Shown here piece after piece: positions 10,552 to 18,472 of a stretch of DNA of 64,000 nucleotides (positions are counted from its first letter, which is position 1; each line of letters begins with the position of its first letter). Where the stretch lies: positions 54,989 through 118,988 of the forward strand of contig CANLYJ010000007.1 of assembly GCA_947495295.1 (NCBI GenBank), written 5' to 3'. The notes under the pieces are model-generated. The model did not search any database. It saw nothing but the letters and a program-made list of their open reading frames with translations, and was not told where the DNA came from. The translations under genes were made by a program, and so were the position numbers. The DNA comes from an uncultured Paracoccaceae bacterium (GTDB lineage: Bacteria > Pseudomonadota > Alphaproteobacteria > Rhodobacterales > Rhodobacteraceae).

Positions 10552-11442
10552 TTGATTGGAGTGATTGCGTTGAGACGATTTGCCCGCCTTCCATCCCTCA
10601 TCGGCGCTTTGGCTGCATGTGCCTGTTTACTAGGCCCGCAAAGCGCCGTGGCCGAGGAAAAACCGATCTTTGATCAAGTGGTCGAGATTGTCGGGTCAGA
10701 GCGTGGTACCGTCCGTAAATGGATTTACGCACCCAAGGTGACTGTCATCCATGAGGGCGACCCACAACGCGATCAGATCAACAGCATTGTCGAAATGGTC
10801 AATGCCCGGATCCCCGACTTCCCGGGTGTTGGTGCCATCGAATTCTTTGATCTGTCCCAATATAATCGCCGCCTTGCAGGCAACACCCATTTCCGCATGC
10901 CTCGCGTCGAATTTGACGGGGTTGAAGGCAATATTGTCCGCGCCTTGTTCAAGGGCGAAGAAGAGGCGCAGAATATCGTGCTAACCGGCAGCATCTTCAT
11001 CTTTCTGACAGGTCTTGAGACGGGCATCACCCTTGGGGCACTGACGCAAAGCACCCAGTCGCTTAGCCGTCAGTTTGCCGAAGGTGCGCAGACGAAGTGT
11101 TATTTTCATCTGATGTCCAAGAATGACGAATTGCGCGCCGGGTTCATCTTTATCAACAACGAAGACGCGCATACGCCCATCGCTGAATGCCTATACGAGG
11201 AGTTCATGCAGACCCTTGGCCTGTTGAACGACTCGCGTGGGTCGTCGATCTTTACCTTTGACAATTCCGGCGACGTTCGTGCGGACCGCGCCCCTGATTT
11301 CCGCCTTTTGCAGGCGCTTTATGATCGTCAGGTCGCCGCTGGTGATGAGGCCGAAAAGGTCGCACAGCTTTATCTGGGGTTAGATGCCGCCTATCAACTT
11401 ACGGCTGCACCGTCAGATACTGCGGCGGCACCCGATCAGTAA
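10552..11442 (+). CDS. DUF2927 domain protein, secreted
   Basis: Signal-like N-terminus; HTPIAECLYEEFMQTLGLLNDSRGSSIFTFDNSGD resembles DUF2927. Confidence 0.7.
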   Translation: MIGVIALRRFARLPSLIGALAACACLLGPQSAVAEEKPIFDQVVEIVGSERGTVRKWIYAPKVTVIHEGDPQRDQINSIVEMVNARIPDFPGVGAIEFFDLSQYNRRLAGNTHFRMPRVEFDGVEGNIVRALFKGEEEAQNIVLTGSIFIFLTGLETGITLGALTQSTQSLSRQFAEGAQTKCYFHLMSKNDELRAGFIFINNEDAHTPIAECLYEEFMQTLGLLNDSRGSSIFTFDNSGDVRADRAPDFRLLQALYDRQVAAGDEAEKVAQLYLGLDAAYQLTAAPSDTAAAPDQ

Positions 11443-11932
11443 GCCAGACACCGTTATCCGCCTGAAAGAACGCAAAACCGGCCTGGGACATGGTATGCGC
11501 ATCAACCTGCAATACCACAGGCTTGCCATGGCGCATCCCGACCTTGGTTGCGGTTGAGACATCCAATGACAGATGCACCTGTTGTCTGCGTCCCGGTTTC
11601 AGACCCTCATTCATGATTGCAGCGACGGATTTTTGCGCTGTGCCGTGAAACAGAGTTGCGGGTGGGTCTGCTGGGCTGAGCCCGAGGGCAATATCGACGG
11701 AATGTCCTTGCGCCGCCCTGATCCGGGTCTTGTCGTTGGACAGGGTGAACCGTTTCTTGTCTGAGGTGACAACGATCTGTTCCAATGTGGCCCGGTCGAT
11801 TTTCTGCCCGGCTTTGGCGCAGCCTGCCAACAGGTCGTCCACAGCCACCCAGCCTTGCGAATCCAGTGTTAGCCCCGCCTTTTCCGGTGCGTGTCTTAGG
11901 ACGAGGCTTAAAAACTTGCTTTGCTGTTTCAT
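11399..11932 (-). CDS. kptA: RNA 2'-phosphotransferase (Tpt1/KptA)
   Basis: KFLSLVLRHAPEKAGLTLDSQGWVAVDDLL...LFHGTAQKSVAAIMNEGLKPGRRQQVHLS. Confidence 0.93.
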   Translation of the reverse strand: MKQQSKFLSLVLRHAPEKAGLTLDSQGWVAVDDLLAGCAKAGQKIDRATLEQIVVTSDKKRFTLSNDKTRIRAAQGHSVDIALGLSPADPPATLFHGTAQKSVAAIMNEGLKPGRRQQVHLSLDVSTATKVGMRHGKPVVLQVDAHTMSQAGFAFFQADNGVWLTDRVPPQYLTVQP

Positions 11933-11950: not shown

Positions 11951-13363
11951 TTAGCGCCGCCCCTTCCTTTTCTTTTTGTCCATCCAGAATGGTGGAATGT
12001 CACCTGCCATCATGCAGCCATACGGATCGATGTAGTCTTCAATCTCGGCGAGGTTGAACTGGCCGATCTGGCGCACCACATTGGCCGCGTTTTTGTAGGA
12101 TGATGGCAACTCGGACGCATCGATCCCACCGGCGGGGAACCGGATATCAAGCCCCTTTGTCTCGGCCTCAAGCGCCTGTTGGGCTGTCATCTCGCCCAGC
12201 CGCCGCTTGTGTTCAGAGCGCGAGAAGTTGCGCCCCGCCCCATGTGGCGAGAAACCCAAGGCATGCTCTGCATCTTTCCCACGCACGACCAAAACGGGTT
12301 CGGACATGTTCAGCGGGATCAGTGTCAGACCCGTCGCATCAGCGGCATAATCACCCCAGGCCGGGGTCGCCCCCTTGCCGTGGTAATACAGATCGCCACG
12401 CCGGAAGACGAAGTTATGTTCATTCCAGAACCGGTCGCCCGGCTGCGCCTTTGACCCTTCAACGGTCGCCTGATGGATCGCGTTATGGTTCGCCTTCGTC
12501 CATTTACGGATAAGTTGCAGCGCCGCCCAATAGTCCTGACCGTCCTGCGTATCCGCCGGGATCCACGCGTTTTGCTTGAGCGTGTCTGGCGACAGCTTTC
12601 TGCGATGTCTTTCGGCTGCTTCCATGCCCAGCTTGTAAAGCACCGCCCCCGGCCCGCGAGAGCCGTGATGGGTGACAATCGCCGTCCGCCCGGTATTGCG
12701 GGACTTGCCCACAAACAGGAAATGGTTGCCGTCCCCCTGGGTGCCCAGATGCTCGACCGCCATGCGCAAAATCTTGGGATTGTTGAGGAACTTGTTTTCC
12801 CGGAACGCATCCATCAGATTTTGCGACATGGTGAACCGCTTGCCATTGGGCCGCCCGCCGGGGCCGAAATGCGTGACCTGTTCGGCAGCGTCCAACACCG
12901 CCTTTGGATCAGTCTCGCCCATATCGGTCATCATGACCGAACAACAGATATCCGCCGAATGCATGCCGGGATGGATCGCATTGCGGGCCGCAACAACACC
13001 GCCCACAGGGATGGTCCCCAACGGACCCGCCGGACAGGCATCGGGCATCACGGCCGCCGACACAACTGTCGGTGTGCGAATAACAGCCTTCATCGTCTCG
13101 CGCACATCGGCAAGGTTCTTGATCTCATCAGGATCGTCCGAGGCTTCGATATTGAAATGAAACGGCACATCGCCCGCCTTTTGCAACGGCAAAGTTGGCG
13201 GCGGTGGGGGTGGCTTCATACCCTCCAGCTTGGCCTTGATCTGGTCCATCTCATAGCCCGCAGCGGCAGCCGCCTGTGCGATTTCGAGGGCACGGCCAAA
13301 TTCCTTGCCGGGGGTATGGCCCCATTCCTTAAGCGTTTCACCGGTGATTTCTACTTGTGTCAT
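11951..13363 (-). CDS. rtcB: RtcB-family RNA ligase
   Basis: HPGMHSADICCSVMMTDMG metal/Cys motif and FSPHGAGRNFSRSEHKRRL guanylylation-His motif. Confidence 0.95.
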   Translation of the reverse strand: MTQVEITGETLKEWGHTPGKEFGRALEIAQAAAAAGYEMDQIKAKLEGMKPPPPPPTLPLQKAGDVPFHFNIEASDDPDEIKNLADVRETMKAVIRTPTVVSAAVMPDACPAGPLGTIPVGGVVAARNAIHPGMHSADICCSVMMTDMGETDPKAVLDAAEQVTHFGPGGRPNGKRFTMSQNLMDAFRENKFLNNPKILRMAVEHLGTQGDGNHFLFVGKSRNTGRTAIVTHHGSRGPGAVLYKLGMEAAERHRRKLSPDTLKQNAWIPADTQDGQDYWAALQLIRKWTKANHNAIHQATVEGSKAQPGDRFWNEHNFVFRRGDLYYHGKGATPAWGDYAADATGLTLIPLNMSEPVLVVRGKDAEHALGFSPHGAGRNFSRSEHKRRLGEMTAQQALEAETKGLDIRFPAGGIDASELPSSYKNAANVVRQIGQFNLAEIEDYIDPYGCMMAGDIPPFWMDKKKRKGRR

Positions 13364-13366
13364 TTT

Positions 13367-13783
13367 CTAGTCTTTCGTCACTTTCCAGTACGTCGCCTTC
13401 ATTACGGGCTCGAATAGGTGCCATTCATGGCAATCTGCGTGATGCCAACCGATATGTTTGCCGCAATGGCAGATACGATTGGGTTCACCACTGCCAGAAA
13501 TATCGCAACATCCGCTCAGCCGTTCCTGATGGGGTGTATAGCCGACCCAATCGCGCAGATCGTCCAAGTTGATCCACGCGTTGCTGCGCGGTTGCCAGCC
13601 TTTAGCGAAAGCCATGCGGATTTTTCGCACCTCACCTTCGATCAGCAAGTAACGACCTCGCGGTGTGACCGGTTTTTCAGGCGCAAAGACGCAGATTGCT
13701 TGCATTTCCGCCGCTGTTTTGATCGGAAAAATCGGAAAGGTCAGTTCTGTTTTACAGGTCGCGCATGTCAAAATCTGTTTCAT
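13367..13783 (-). CDS. Cys/His-rich uncharacterised protein in RNA-repair operon
   Basis: Internal start MKQILTCATCKTELTFPIFPI; C-terminal CCDISGSGEPNRICHCGKHIGWHHADCHEW; 3 nt upstream of rtcB; upstream part of the ORF overlaps the RNA array. Confidence 0.65.
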   Translation of the reverse strand: MKQILTCATCKTELTFPIFPIKTAAEMQAICVFAPEKPVTPRGRYLLIEGEVRKIRMAFAKGWQPRSNAWINLDDLRDWVGYTPHQERLSGCCDISGSGEPNRICHCGKHIGWHHADCHEWHLFEPVMKATYWKVTKD

Positions 13784-13810
13784 CTCATTCACTCTCAAAT
13801 CTAACCAAGG

Positions 13811-13942
13811 CCGGAACAAGGTGTTTGCAGGATAATTTTCCGCCACCGGATTTCTCCGGGCTGGGGTCGAACCAGCACGGGCCTTTTGGCCCCGGCCCCC
13901 AGAGGGCCTGCGTCTACCTGTAATCCTGACAGGCATTTCCAG
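13811..13942 (-). ncRNA. Y-RNA-like unit 8, with T-arm-like element and GAAA-capped hairpin
   Basis: Outer CTGGAA/TTCCGG, inner CAGGAT/ATCCTG, AATGC and TTGT motifs; interior GCTGG-TTCGACC-CCAGC followed by CCGGA-GAAA-TCCGG. Confidence 0.7.
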
Positions 13943-13950
13943 ATCATGGG

Positions 13951-14028
13951 TCCGGAGGACAAAGGTTTCGTGAGATGCCTTTCGGCGACCGTTTTAGAGC
14001 GATGTAATCCCACGGGCATTCCCCCGGA
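13951..14028 (-). ncRNA. Y-RNA-like unit 7 (minimal, no tRNA-like domain)
   Basis: Outer TCCGGGGGA/TCCTCCGGA, inner CGTGGGAT/ATCTCACG, AATGC and TTTGT motifs. Confidence 0.75.
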
Positions 14029-14081
14029 TGTGTTTCCTTTCTGTCTTACAGAGGTTTGCAGGGCAGTGCCTGGACCTCAGG

Positions 14082-14160
14082 GTGGGTGCGAAGCGCCCTC
14101 CCCATGGGGGAGGTCCGGGCGCTGCCCGGCAATGCCGGGCGGGACATTCGCTCCACGCGC
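14082..14160. repeat. REP-like block of nested GC palindromes
   Basis: CCTCCCC-atg-GGGGAGG and GCCCGGCAATGCCGGGC palindromes adjacent within the RNA array. Confidence 0.55.
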
Positions 14161-14176
14161 CACGCTCAAATTACCA

Positions 14177-14252
14177 TGGCTGGAAGAGCAGGGTTCGAAC
14201 CTGCGACCTGCGGTACCAAAAACCGTTGCTCTACCAGCTGAGCTACCTTCCA
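14177..14252 (-). tRNA. tRNA-Gln(UUG)-like, canonical order, inside the Y-RNA-like array
   Basis: TGGAAGG-TA-GCTC-AGCTGGTA-GAGC-A-ACGGT-TTTTGGT-ACCGC-AGGTC-GCAGG-TTCGAAC-CCTGC-TCTTCCA-G-CCA; A27xC43 mismatch. Confidence 0.85.
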
Positions 14253-14255
14253 ATG

Positions 14256-14321
14256 GCGGAGGACAAGGGTTCAGTGAGACGCTGACACTTTGGAGATGTA
14301 GTCCCACAGGCATTCCTCCTG
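14256..14321 (-). ncRNA. Y-RNA-like unit 6 (minimal, no tRNA-like domain)
   Basis: Outer GGAGGA/TCCTCC, inner GTGGGAC/GTCTCAC, AATGC and TTGT motifs. Confidence 0.75.
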
Positions 14322-14331
14322 CTTGATTTGC

Positions 14332-14462
14332 CCCGGCGACAAGTATCTGGCGAAACGTTACGCGCTCTATCCATCTGAGCTATCCCGTCATGGTAACGGG
14401 AGTGGGATTCGAACCCACGACCTCGACATTCGTAGTGTAGTTCCACCAAGGCATTCGCCAGG
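14332..14462 (-). ncRNA. Y-RNA-like unit 5 with circularly permuted tRNA-like domain
   Basis: Outer CCTGGCGA/TCGCCGGG, inner GGTGGAAC/GTTTCGCC; interior T-arm GTGGG-TTCGAAT-CCCAC, then TCCCGTT-ACCA-T-GACGGGA acceptor, then D-arm GCTCAGATGGATAGAGC. Confidence 0.85.
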
Positions 14463-14475
14463 GCTGTTATTCGGG

Positions 14476-14595
14476 TCCGGCAACAAAGTGGGGCGAAACA
14501 TGTATACTGCTCTACCAACTGAGCTACCCGGTGAAGTGACCTCCGGGGCGGGGCTCGAACCCGCGACCAATGTAGTTCCACCAGCATTTGCCGGA
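14476..14595 (-). ncRNA. Y-RNA-like unit 4 with circularly permuted tRNA-like domain
   Basis: Outer TCCGGCAA/TTGCCGGA (8/8), inner GGTGGAAC/GTTTCGCC; T-arm GCGGG-TTCGAGC-CCCGC, acceptor-like CCCGG...CCGGG, D-arm GCTCAGTTGGTAGAGC. Confidence 0.85.
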
Positions 14596-14604
14596 ATGTT
14601 CGGG

Positions 14605-14751
14605 TCTGGCGACAAAGGGAAAGAAACGTTTTGGGGCCCCGCCCCCATTTCCGCAGAAATGGTTTTCCGTCTGGGCGTCTTCGCTAGAGGGGAGTTGAAC
14701 CCTCGGGTGATCCCGGTTTGGTGCGATGTAGTTCCTTTGGCATTCGCCAGA
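14605..14751 (-). ncRNA. Y-RNA-like unit 3 with degenerate T-arm-like element
   Basis: Outer TCTGGCGA/TCGCCAGA (8/8), inner AAAGGAAC/GTTTCTTT; interior GAGGG-TTCAACT-CCCCTC, no D-arm recognised. Confidence 0.75.
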
Positions 14752-14760
14752 ATATCTGGT

Positions 14761-14898
14761 CTTGGCAACAAGGTTTTGATGAAACATTGGGGAGGTGCTC
14801 TTCCAACTGAGCTACATCGCTCCGGTTGTCCCGGCTGTGATGGCGGGGTTCGAACCCGCGACATCATCCGTGATGTAGTTCCACCGGCATTTGCCAAG
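14761..14898 (-). ncRNA. Y-RNA-like unit 2 with circularly permuted tRNA-like domain
   Basis: Outer CTTGGCAA/TTGCCAAG (8/8), inner GGTGGAAC/GTTTCATC; T-arm GCGGG-TTCGAAC-CCCGC, CATC...CCGG-gacaa-CCGG...GATG closed acceptor, D-arm GCTCAGTTGGAAGAGC. Confidence 0.85.
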
Positions 14899-14914
14899 GT
14901 GTTTGTTTGTCGGT

Positions 14915-15010
14915 CCCGGCGACAATCGGGGGTGAAACATCAACATGCGCGTATTCTGCCAGCAAAACCGCCATCACGTTCCCTATGTAGTTCCACCAGC
15001 ATTCGCCGGG
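14915..15010 (-). ncRNA. Y-RNA-like unit 1 (no clear tRNA-like domain)
   Basis: Outer CCCGGCGA/TCGCCGGG (8/8), inner GGTGGAAC/GTTTCACC (8/8), AATGC and TTGT motifs. Confidence 0.8.
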
Positions 15011-15120
15011 TTTCATTCCTTTCATTTCAATCGGCGTCCTACGATCATTTGGACGACAAAGCCGTTTCGCCAAGGCGTGACGTGACCCACGCATTTCCGA
15101 GAGTTACAATTCTTTTGTGT

Positions 15121-15144
15121 GGGTCAGGCGTTGCCGCCTGACCC
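15121..15144. other. Perfect hairpin between rsr stop codon and the RNA array
   Basis: GGGTCAGGCG-ttgc-CGCCTGACCC, 10-bp stem, no T-run on the minus strand. Confidence 0.6.
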
Positions 15145-15148
15145 GTTC

Positions 15149-16705
15149 TTAAATGTCGGTTGCCTCGATTTGGCCGACCCAGTGATCTGGTCCCATCTCG
15201 CCTGCCGCGAAGGCTGCGATCTGGTCAAAGACCGTGTCCGAGAACCCGCCAATGTTCAGAACATCGTCGCGTTCTTTCGCCTGGGTCGTCCCGTATGGGG
15301 CGATGTCGATGCAGACCAGTTTGGCCTTTGGGTTCCGCCTTTTCAGCTTCTCCCACGCTTGCATCATAACCGTCCCGGCGTTGCCGTACTGGTTATGCGC
15401 CCAGGACTGGTTGTCCGAGACGATGATCACCAGATCCGGGGCACGCCCCTTGGCCAGCAACCAATCCAGCGGTGCCGCGCAATTGGTCCCGCCGCCCCAC
15501 TGATCCGCCAAACGTGCTGCGTTTGTCAGGATCGTGTCGCGTGGTTCCAGCCGCACATCGCGCACCTTCACCTCGAACGGCAGGACCGTCGCGGATGGGT
15601 TACGCCGCAGCACAGCCGCAGAGACAAGCCCCGCCACATCCACGAACCGCGTCGCTGTGGTGGCCCCCTTACGGTAGCCTGTTACAGCGCCGGACATGGA
15701 CCCGGATACATCCGGGGCAACCACAACCTGACCGCGCAGCTTTGGCACGTTGCGCACCGAAAGCTCCATCGCGTCATGCAATGCGTCCCTGATCTCGGCC
15801 GGCATGTCCGAAGACATGGCCTGATAGGCCGTCATCAGCTGATACGGGAACACCCGTGCCTTTGCGATCAGCGCCGGATCACGCAAACGATCCGCAATCA
15901 TGCACCGCATTTTCGGCAGGGCCAGAACCCCGTGCCGCAGGAACGTGTTCAGGTTCATACGGGTCATCTGCCAAGATGCGTTCTCAGCAATCTTTGCCCA
16001 CTGTTTCGTAGACAATTCAAGCTGCGTCAGCATCTGGAACGGAACGTTTGGCACGCGGCCACGGCCCGTTTTCTTGAACCGCAGGAAATCCTGCACATTA
16101 TCCGGCAGCAATGCGACGTCACATGGCTTCCTGATGATCCACGCAAACAGCGCGTCTCGCGCCTTCGAGGAAGGCTTCGGGTGGACCATCTTGATCACAT
16201 CCGCCAGCGACGGGTCGTTACCCACATTCGCCTGCAGGATCGCCCGGTCGGACGCCTCATTCAGCCAATTGGCAACCAGCCGCTTTGGCGCAGAGCCAAG
16301 CGATTTCCGCCCCGTCTGCCCCGACCGCATGATCTGCACAAAGGTGCGCAGCATCTTGCCGTTATCCACAACACGCCCAACGACGCGCTGGAACAGGATC
16401 GGGTCACGGGCCGACAGAACCGCCAGCAACAGGGCGGGCATATCTTTCATATGGCCCTCTTGCCGGGTGTAGACCGCCGCCTTTGCAAGAAAGGACGGAT
16501 CAACCTTTTGCGCCAATTCCAGCGTGCGGGACAGTTCCTGCATCGGGTCCTGGTAGAATGTCTGCCCAAACGTGCCGGTCATCGCCAGCTGCGCCAAGGC
16601 ATGCGCATCGGAATAGGTATAGGCCGGTGCCCCCGCCAGATTCGTAGCAGAAGCTGCCGGAAGCAACCGGCCTTTCATCGATGCAAACACAGATTTGTTT
16701 GCCAT
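15149..16705 (-). CDS. rsr: TROVE/Ro60-family RNA-binding protein with vWA domain (Rsr)
   Basis: LLLAVLSARDPILFQRVVGRVVDNGKMLRTFVQIMRSGQTGRKSLGSAPKRLVANWL TROVE repeats; VVVAPDVSGSMSG MIDAS motif in the C-terminal part. Confidence 0.93.
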   Translation of the reverse strand: MANKSVFASMKGRLLPAASATNLAGAPAYTYSDAHALAQLAMTGTFGQTFYQDPMQELSRTLELAQKVDPSFLAKAAVYTRQEGHMKDMPALLLAVLSARDPILFQRVVGRVVDNGKMLRTFVQIMRSGQTGRKSLGSAPKRLVANWLNEASDRAILQANVGNDPSLADVIKMVHPKPSSKARDALFAWIIRKPCDVALLPDNVQDFLRFKKTGRGRVPNVPFQMLTQLELSTKQWAKIAENASWQMTRMNLNTFLRHGVLALPKMRCMIADRLRDPALIAKARVFPYQLMTAYQAMSSDMPAEIRDALHDAMELSVRNVPKLRGQVVVAPDVSGSMSGAVTGYRKGATTATRFVDVAGLVSAAVLRRNPSATVLPFEVKVRDVRLEPRDTILTNAARLADQWGGGTNCAAPLDWLLAKGRAPDLVIIVSDNQSWAHNQYGNAGTVMMQAWEKLKRRNPKAKLVCIDIAPYGTTQAKERDDVLNIGGFSDTVFDQIAAFAAGEMGPDHWVGQIEATDI

Positions 16706-16850
16706 TTCACTCTCGTCCTTCTTCGTTTCAGTGATGCTGTTTTCGTGGATTTTGAGGGTTGGACGAAGAAAAATCGCATTCGCTTTAAGTCGCTGTTTTT
16801 ATTAGAGTATTTTTGGCAAAACGATAATGACTACAGAATTTACGATTTAC

Positions 16851-16870
16851 ACGGATATTACTTTATCCGT
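16851..16870. promoter_or_regulatory. Palindrome just upstream of rtcR in the rsr/rtcR divergent region
   Basis: ACGGATA-TTACTT-TATCCGT, 7-bp arms, directly abutting the ATG at 16871. Confidence 0.45.
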
Positions 16871-16882
16871 ATGGATAATCTT

Positions 16883-18472
16883 ATGAAGAAGAATGTTGTC
16901 ATCGGCTTTCTGGGGACGAATCTGGACGCGGGCAAGCGCCGCCGCTGGCGTCCCTCTGTGCAGATCAATGATCATCCTGATTTTCCTATTACGCGACTGG
17001 AATTGCTGCATGATCGGCGCTGGACGGGGCTTGCCACGAAAATCAAAGGCGAGGTTGAACGCGCCCATCCCGAAACCGAGGTCCTGCTGCACGAGGTCAA
17101 CGTCCACGACCCGTGGGATTTTGAGGAGATGTATGGCGCGATGTTCGATTTCGCCCGTGATTATGGTTTTGATGATGAGCGGGAGGAATACCACGTTCAT
17201 CTGACCACCGGCACACATGTTGCGCAAATCTGCTGGTTCCTGCTAACCGAGGCGCGCCATATCCCGGCCAAACTGGTTCAGACCGGCCCGCCGCGCGGTG
17301 AGGATACCGGCCCCGGCACCTTGCAGATCGTTGATCTTGATCTGTCGCGCTACAATGCCCTGCAACAACGGTTTGATCTGGTTTCCAAGGAATATAACGC
17401 CCTGTTGAAGGGCGGGATCGACACCAAGAACGCAGCCTTTAACGCGATGATTGACCGGATGGAGGTCGTGACCTCCAATTCAGACGCGCCGCTGTTGTTG
17501 ATAGGGCCGACCGGGACGGGGAAATCGGATCTTGCCGCGCGCTTGTATGAATTGAAGCTGCAACGCCGTCGCATCAAGGGCCGTTTGGTCCATGTGAATT
17601 GTTCGACGCTGAAGGGCGAGCGGGCCATGTCGACCCTATTTGGCCACCGCAGACAATCTATCCGTGGCGCAGGGTCCGACCGGCGCGGCCTGCTGCAAGA
17701 GGCTGATGGCGGTGTCCTGTTTCTGGACGAGATTGACGAGCTGGGTCTGGATGAACAGGCGATGATCCTGCACGCGGTTGAGACGGGCAAATACCTGCCA
17801 CTTGGGTCGGATTACGAGGTGACCAGCCGGTTTCATCTGATCGCGGGGGCGGGGCGTGATCTGGCGGCTTTGGTGGCCAAGGGCCAGTTTCGCGCCGACC
17901 TGTTTGCCCGGCTGAACCTATGGACATTCCACCTACCCGCTTTGCGTGACCGACCCGAGGATATCGACCCGAATATCGCCTATGAACTGGCACGGGTAGA
18001 AAAACTGTTGGGGCAACGGCTCAGCTTTAATGCCGATGCATTCACCCGCTATCAACGTTTTGCCACAGATCCGGGCACTGATTGGTCAGGCAATTTTCGT
18101 GACCTGTCCGCATCTGTCCAACGCATGTGTACCCTTGCCCCGCGGGGACGGATTACATTGGCTATGGTCGAGGATGAAATTGCCACGTTGCGCAGCACAT
18201 GGCGCGACGCGACCCGCGACCCGGATTTGCAGCTATTGCAGGCGCATCTGGGTGCGGCTGCACAGGACATCGACATCTTTGATCGGGTCCAATTGGCCGC
18301 TGTTATTCGGATTTGCCAGAAAAGCGCGAGCCTGAGCGCTGCGGGTCGGACGTTATTCGCGGCTTCGCGCGCGGCCAGGGCCAGCCGGAACGATGCCGAC
18401 CGGCTGCGCAAGTATCTGGATAAATTCGGTCTTGATTGGGCGCAATGTCAGGCAGATGCCGCTTCAGGGTAG
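16883..18472 (+). CDS. rtcR: RtcR-type CARF + AAA+ transcriptional regulator
   Basis: VVIGFLGTNLDAGKRRRWRPSVQINDHPDFPITRLELLHD (RtcR N-terminal domain), GPTGTGKSDLA Walker A, GGVLFLDEIDELG Walker B; ATG at 16871 also possible. Confidence 0.93.
   Translation: MKKNVVIGFLGTNLDAGKRRRWRPSVQINDHPDFPITRLELLHDRRWTGLATKIKGEVERAHPETEVLLHEVNVHDPWDFEEMYGAMFDFARDYGFDDEREEYHVHLTTGTHVAQICWFLLTEARHIPAKLVQTGPPRGEDTGPGTLQIVDLDLSRYNALQQRFDLVSKEYNALLKGGIDTKNAAFNAMIDRMEVVTSNSDAPLLLIGPTGTGKSDLAARLYELKLQRRRIKGRLVHVNCSTLKGERAMSTLFGHRRQSIRGAGSDRRGLLQEADGGVLFLDEIDELGLDEQAMILHAVETGKYLPLGSDYEVTSRFHLIAGAGRDLAALVAKGQFRADLFARLNLWTFHLPALRDRPEDIDPNIAYELARVEKLLGQRLSFNADAFTRYQRFATDPGTDWSGNFRDLSASVQRMCTLAPRGRITLAMVEDEIATLRSTWRDATRDPDLQLLQAHLGAAAQDIDIFDRVQLAAVIRICQKSASLSAAGRTLFAASRAARASRNDADRLRKYLDKFGLDWAQCQADAASG

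Follow-up and report, generated by a model that had tools for sequence, protein, structure and literature searches.

Why does a canonical tRNA gene lie among Y RNA genes in the middle of an RNA-repair operon? The gene in question occupies positions 14177-14252 on the minus strand of the window, the whole 64,000 nucleotide stretch of Paracoccaceae DNA analysed here. We characterised the gene and its surroundings, compared them with related operons and known systems, and weighed the possible roles of the tRNA.

A genuine tRNA-Gln(UUG) gene within an RNA-repair operon

An earlier note on this DNA had described a full-length tRNA in normal order, with anticodon TTG, G73, an encoded CCA and a mismatched A27xC43, and each of these features was verified using ARAGORN, Rfam and the individual structure segments. 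The gene encodes a canonical cloverleaf, its D and T loops conserved, and matches the Rfam tRNA family (RF00005) with 61.6 bits, well over the gathering score of 29 and inside the range spanned by the 39 tRNAs of this genome (52.5 to 74.8 bits). The anticodon UUG, the U1-A72 pair, G73 and CCA expected of a tRNA-Gln(UUG) are all present. We rejected the A27xC43 mismatch as a sign of decay, as it is common to the operon tRNA-Gln copies of two related loci (L080 and L082) and the housekeeping tRNA-Gln of a Loktanella genome (L151). Because that housekeeping tRNA has the same mismatch, it provides no argument against function in translation.

The tRNA gene belongs to an RNA-repair operon. The first gene of the operon encodes an Rsr (Ro60) orthologue with TROVE and vWA_Ro60 domains (15149-16705; Pfam PF25045 and PF05731) and is followed on the minus strand by an array of Y RNAs, the tRNA, more Y RNAs, the RNA ligase RtcB (11951-13363; PF01139) and the RNA 2'-phosphotransferase KptA/Tpt1 (11399-11932; PF01885). 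The rtcR gene (16883-18472, plus strand) is divergent from rsr and encodes an RtcR/CARF-type sensor domain and an AAA+ domain (PF06956 and PF00158). Pfam searches and covariance models thus place rsr, the Y RNAs and rtcB on one strand with a divergent rtcR, as in known RNA-repair operons. A small ORF of approximately 138 amino acids (13370-13783, minus strand) lies between the Y RNAs and RtcB; it is partly conserved in relatives and has no Pfam match. A search of the operon strand from 13360 to 16900 revealed neither a sigma-70-like promoter nor a terminator.

The layout resembles that of the Salmonella rsr-yrlBA-rtcBA operon, which likewise unites RtcR and Rsr with RtcB and with YrlA-type Y RNAs that lie between rsr and rtcB (PMC7790460). 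The two operons differ in that Salmonella has RtcA where KptA is found here, and in that the window has a tRNA-Gln, whereas the passages searched in that study do not mention a canonical tRNA. They also differ in the two components of enterobacterial-type sigma-54 control, the GAFTGA loop of RtcR and a -24/-12 promoter, neither of which was found in the window. The GAFTGA loop, which contacts sigma-54, is absent from the RtcR encoded here and from all other Rhodobacterales RtcR proteins checked, and is kept by nearly all RtcR proteins of other phyla. An alignment of upstream regions revealed no -24/-12 promoter upstream of Rsr in the window. The RtcR of this operon probably works without sigma-54. 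A -24/-12-type element (TTGGCACGC..TGC) does occur in the operons of a planctomycete (L087) and a member of the Phycisphaerae (L110). The promoter/operator region of the operon (16706-16882, minus strand) contains a TATCC-N4-GGATA palindrome and a further half-site (16838-16875, minus strand) that are conserved 5' of Rsr in many relatives; the palindrome is likely to be the RtcR operator.

The neighbouring elements are YrlA-type Y RNAs

The elements around the tRNA had been described in the earlier note as permuted tRNA modules, but they belong to an established family, the YrlA-type Y RNAs (Rfam RF02553). Matches to RF02553 in the array have E-values down to 5.6e-19, one of them over the gathering threshold, and a covariance model built here (R1) yielded seven Y RNA matches. 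In transcriptional order on the minus strand, these are Y1 (14913-15009; RF02553 38 bits, R1 51 bits), the YrlA-type Y2 (14759-14897; RF02553 55.9 bits, R1 116 bits), the divergent Y3 (14603-14750; R1 42.2 bits), the YrlA-type Y4 (14474-14594; RF02553 84.1 bits, above gathering), the YrlA-type Y5 with its tRNA-like domain (14330-14461; RF02553 66.9 bits, R1 110 bits), the short Y6, which has no tRNA-like domain and lies directly upstream of the tRNA (14254-14320; R1 36.4 bits, RF02553 E-value 0.054), and the short Y7 downstream of the tRNA, which is conserved in relatives (13950-14026; R1 40.8 bits). A probable eighth Y RNA (13812-13942, approximate ends, minus strand) is divergent and was recognised by eye, with no model score, from a T-arm-like hairpin and a stretch that is conserved in relatives (AATGCC..GATTACA..TTCGACC..CATCCTG..CCTTGTTC). 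In the YrlA family the T arm precedes the D arm inside the Ro60-binding stem; this is the case for the neighbours of the tRNA but not for 14177-14252, which is a normal-order tRNA of RF00005 and not a Y RNA. The tRNA had been placed 4 nt from the sixth unit on the same strand. The strand was correct, and the gap is 1 nt when Y6 ends at 14254, the figure of 4 nt depending on the unit end chosen.

Several ARAGORN predictions in related arrays were rejected as tRNAs: a tRNA-SeC (L083) and a tRNA-Asp (L200) correspond to the divergent Y RNA after Y7, and a tRNA-Arg (L107) and a tRNA-Leu (L097) overlap Y RNAs.

We found no support for the suggestion that the tRNA was the raw material from which the neighbouring units arose. 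The tRNA-Gln and the Y RNAs have a GCTC/GAGC D arm in common, but the same D arm is found in 18 of the 29 distinct tRNAs of the genome and in YrlA RNAs from distant phyla. The likeness therefore says nothing about origin, and we rejected it as proof that the Y RNAs descend from tRNA-Gln.

tRNA genes recur among the Y RNAs of related operons

To place the gene in a wider context, we compared 30 Rhodobacterales loci (16, including the window, and 14 from a second search). One to three tRNAs are located among the Y RNAs in 22 of these 30 operons, several of which come from one genus and are not all independent, the array being found in 18 of 139 genera. The isotypes are Gln(UUG) (15 genes), Asn(GUU) (14), Pro(UGG or CGG) (9) and Lys(UUU) (3). 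At the density of this genome, approximately 0.0046 tRNAs per kb per strand, chance would place about 0.2 tRNAs in 30 arrays of approximately 1.4 kb, against the 41 observed. A frequent order is Y-Pro-Y-Asn-Gln-Y, and wherever Asn and Gln both occur they are separated by exactly 4 nt, a pair kept across several genera. Interleaved tRNAs of other isotypes occur in Phycisphaerae (Y-Pro-Y-Arg in L110 and Y-Pro-Y-Leu-Y in L108), and a Calditrichia operon (L100) has a tRNA-Phe and another tRNA between its Y RNAs. The operon of the planctomycete Adhaeretor mobilis (L087) runs from RtcR through Rsr, Y RNAs and RtcB to RtcA, 3' of which at least 23 tRNA genes, representing many isotypes, lie on the same strand (L087:14119-17562). 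Text searches covering part of the literature returned no earlier mention of tRNAs in such operons, and one may exist.

tRNAs were not found in 8 of the 30 Rhodobacterales operons, in any of the 9 other pseudomonadotan loci sampled, or in the operons of Rhizobium, Shinella and Methylosinus plasmids. Because related and other pseudomonadotan loci lack them, the repair system can do without the tRNAs, which counts against a role in replacing damaged tRNAs.

The gap between a Y RNA and the following tRNA is 0-10 nt in 31 of 39 cases (Rhodobacterales, Phycisphaerae and Calditrichia), leaving no room for a promoter of the tRNA's own. Such gaps, and the alternation of tRNAs with Y RNAs, are consistent with the tRNAs serving as punctuation, i.e., as processing signals at which RNase P (at the 5' end) and 3' tRNA processing would free Y RNA ends and separate the RtcB message. 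However, the majority of Y RNAs in these arrays are not adjacent to a tRNA (Y1 to Y5 in the window), and entire arrays without tRNAs exist. A pure signal would also need no fixed anticodon, discriminator base or U1-A72 pair, yet neither Gln(UUG) nor Asn(GUU) varies. We consider it rather unlikely that punctuation is what the tRNA is mainly kept for.

Operon tRNAs duplicate housekeeping genes and retain charging features

A search for another tRNA-Gln(UUG), proposed in the earlier note, identified one at 148537-148611 of contig C1, so the operon copy is not the sole tRNA-Gln gene. The two are 74% identical and differ in the D arm. Relatives, too, carry a housekeeping tRNA-Gln apart from the operon copy, except for three in which the search did not recover one (G061, G062 and G066), and housekeeping Pro, Asn and Lys tRNAs are likewise located outside the operon in the relatives where they were searched for. 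The operon tRNAs thus duplicate housekeeping genes, as expected of a stress-induced tRNA operon of the Anabaena trn type. The trn operon of Anabaena PCC 7120 contains 26 extra tRNAs that are silent until translational stress and favour survival, and its repressor, TrcR, represses it together with rtcB (PMC10272220). Both systems have extra tRNAs beyond the housekeeping set, which in Anabaena are stress-induced and co-regulated with rtcB. They differ in that trn is a separate plasmid operon with an RHH repressor, no RtcR, and rtcB at another locus (PMC10272220), whereas here the repair operon itself holds one to three selected tRNAs, placed among its Y RNAs. With the trn operon as a precedent, the most economical reading would be that the RtcR switch also issues replacement tRNAs. 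We favour, with moderate confidence, the following role for 14177-14252: it would be a functional back-up tRNA-Gln(UUG), transcribed within an RtcR-controlled RNA-repair operon.

The sequences of the operon tRNAs bear on whether they are merely passengers, i.e., neutral remnants captured with a mobile operon or from phages. The scattered occurrence of the operon, found in 23 of 390 genomes of the order, and the existence of phages carrying Rsr among tRNAs, such as Mx1, fit that view. Against it, 98.4% of the pairs in the 12 distinct operon tRNA-Gln sequences, whose identities go down to 79%, are standard (93.7% in shuffles), and both partners have changed at six pairs (2.2 on average in shuffles). 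The U1-A72 pair, the anticodon and CCA do not vary among these sequences. Several genera also retain the Asn-Gln pair with its 4 nt spacing. A passenger origin is already disfavoured by this covariation, and we regard it as very improbable.

Neither GlnRS nor AsnRS was found above the curated cut-off in the genome, and Gln and Asn are therefore expected to be charged via transamidation. The U1-A72 pair, a recognition element of GatCAB, is kept in the operon Gln and Asn tRNAs. Position 73 is A rather than G in 3 of the 15 operon tRNA-Gln copies (L071, L077 and L079), which counts against replacement.

The earlier note had proposed that the tRNA may be a decoy or sentinel, the cleavage of which by anticodon nucleases feeds RtcB or signals to RtcR; a sacrificial tRNA of this kind might also titrate the nuclease. 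In favour of such a role, most operon tRNA-Gln copies, all but one of the Asn copies and the Lys copies have the same anticodon loop as their housekeeping counterparts, so that the tRNA-Gln of the window could be cut alike. In Salmonella, moreover, 5' tRNA fragments with a 2',3'-cyclic phosphate end are the ligand that activates RtcR, and YrlA has been proposed to act as a competitive inhibitor of the nuclease (PMC7790460). The proposal is weakened by several observations. A sentinel must exist before induction, but for this tRNA, located deep in the operon, no promoter of its own could be recognised. A decoy has no need of charging features, and all of these are kept. Furthermore, the operon tRNA-Pro has A37 (9 of 9) where all housekeeping tRNA-Pro examined have G37, the opposite of what would be expected of a mimic. 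A sentinel or decoy appears less likely than a replacement tRNA, and we consider it improbable.

The A37 of operon tRNA-Pro could instead indicate that the operon tRNAs are spares altered into poor nuclease substrates. This has been proposed for phage tRNAs, which replace tRNAs destroyed by anticodon nucleases and some of which have loop changes (PMC10264068, PMC11555353) argued to allow evasion of these nucleases (PMC10264068). A37 is also found in the operon tRNA-Gln of one clade, and the anticodon stems of operon tRNAs tend to contain more G-C pairs than those of housekeeping tRNAs (2-4 versus 2-3 for Gln, 3-4 versus 1 for Asn, 3-4 versus 2-3 for Pro, and 4-5 versus 2-3 for Lys). Loop changes relative to the host tRNA are nevertheless restricted to the operon Pro and some Gln tRNAs of relatives; the tRNA-Gln of the window has the unchanged housekeeping loop (TTTTGGT), as do all Asn and Lys copies but one. 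The tRNAs studied here differ from those of phages in this respect, and in being encoded by the cell and coupled to RtcR. Resistance to nucleases is a doubtful general explanation, with a probability that we place slightly lower still than that of a decoy. An apparent C2xA71 mismatch in the acceptor stem was observed in each of the operon tRNA-Lys(UUU) genes of three loci (L196, L197 and L205).

A candidate replacement tRNA

If 14177-14252 is a back-up tRNA, a plausible order of events would be as follows. Cleavage of tRNAs would lead RtcR to switch on the operon, and a single transcript would then supply Rsr, Y RNAs, the RtcB ligase and the KptA 2'-phosphotransferase together with fresh copies of a few tRNAs, those whose loss would stall translation. 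The spare Gln, Asn, Pro and Lys tRNAs found at the same place in relatives suggest that the cell makes replacements as well as repairing cut tRNAs. Cleavage of tRNAs, co-induction of the tRNA-Gln with the operon, its charging and use in translation, and processing by RNase P are all inferred from comparison with related operons and known systems; the one pointer to induction by stress is the position of the gene in an RtcR operon. The tight spacing suggests that cleavage by RNase P at the 5' end of the tRNA would also release the 3' end of the Y RNA before it. This trimming is probably secondary to the replacement role, because most Y RNAs have no adjacent tRNA. The unchanged anticodon loop counts against replacement, as nothing obvious would protect the copy in the window from a nuclease that cuts the loop, and it might be lost in the same way as the housekeeping original.

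More tentatively, and at less than even chances, RtcR operons in several phyla could be two-armed, combining repair with replacements for the isotypes most at risk, some of them with nuclease-resistant anticodon arms. In the same tentative picture, the isotypes at risk would be Gln, Asn, Pro and Lys here and near-complete sets in some planctomycetes. If so, these operons would be a cellular counterpart of the tRNA cargo of phages. The replacement reading, if true, would mean that a single transcript, induced by damage, couples bacterial RNA repair by RtcB to replacement of the damaged tRNA. Which isotypes a lineage retains would then indicate the nucleases it encounters, and what RtcR/RtcB operons protect against would become directly testable. 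The placement of Y RNAs next to tRNAs is also a natural setting in which to test how Y RNA ends form.

Further associations were observed outside the Rhodobacterales. Viral contigs searched with an Rsr query returned no Rsr relative from that query. Rsr is flanked by many tRNAs in Myxococcus phage Mx1 (L189), where a peptidyl-tRNA hydrolase is also present, and on a Sandaracinaceae contig that has no RtcR and is possibly of phage origin (L093). On a Shinella plasmid (L187:8217-11697), the RtcB of the operon precedes another RtcB and prfH, a release factor gene.
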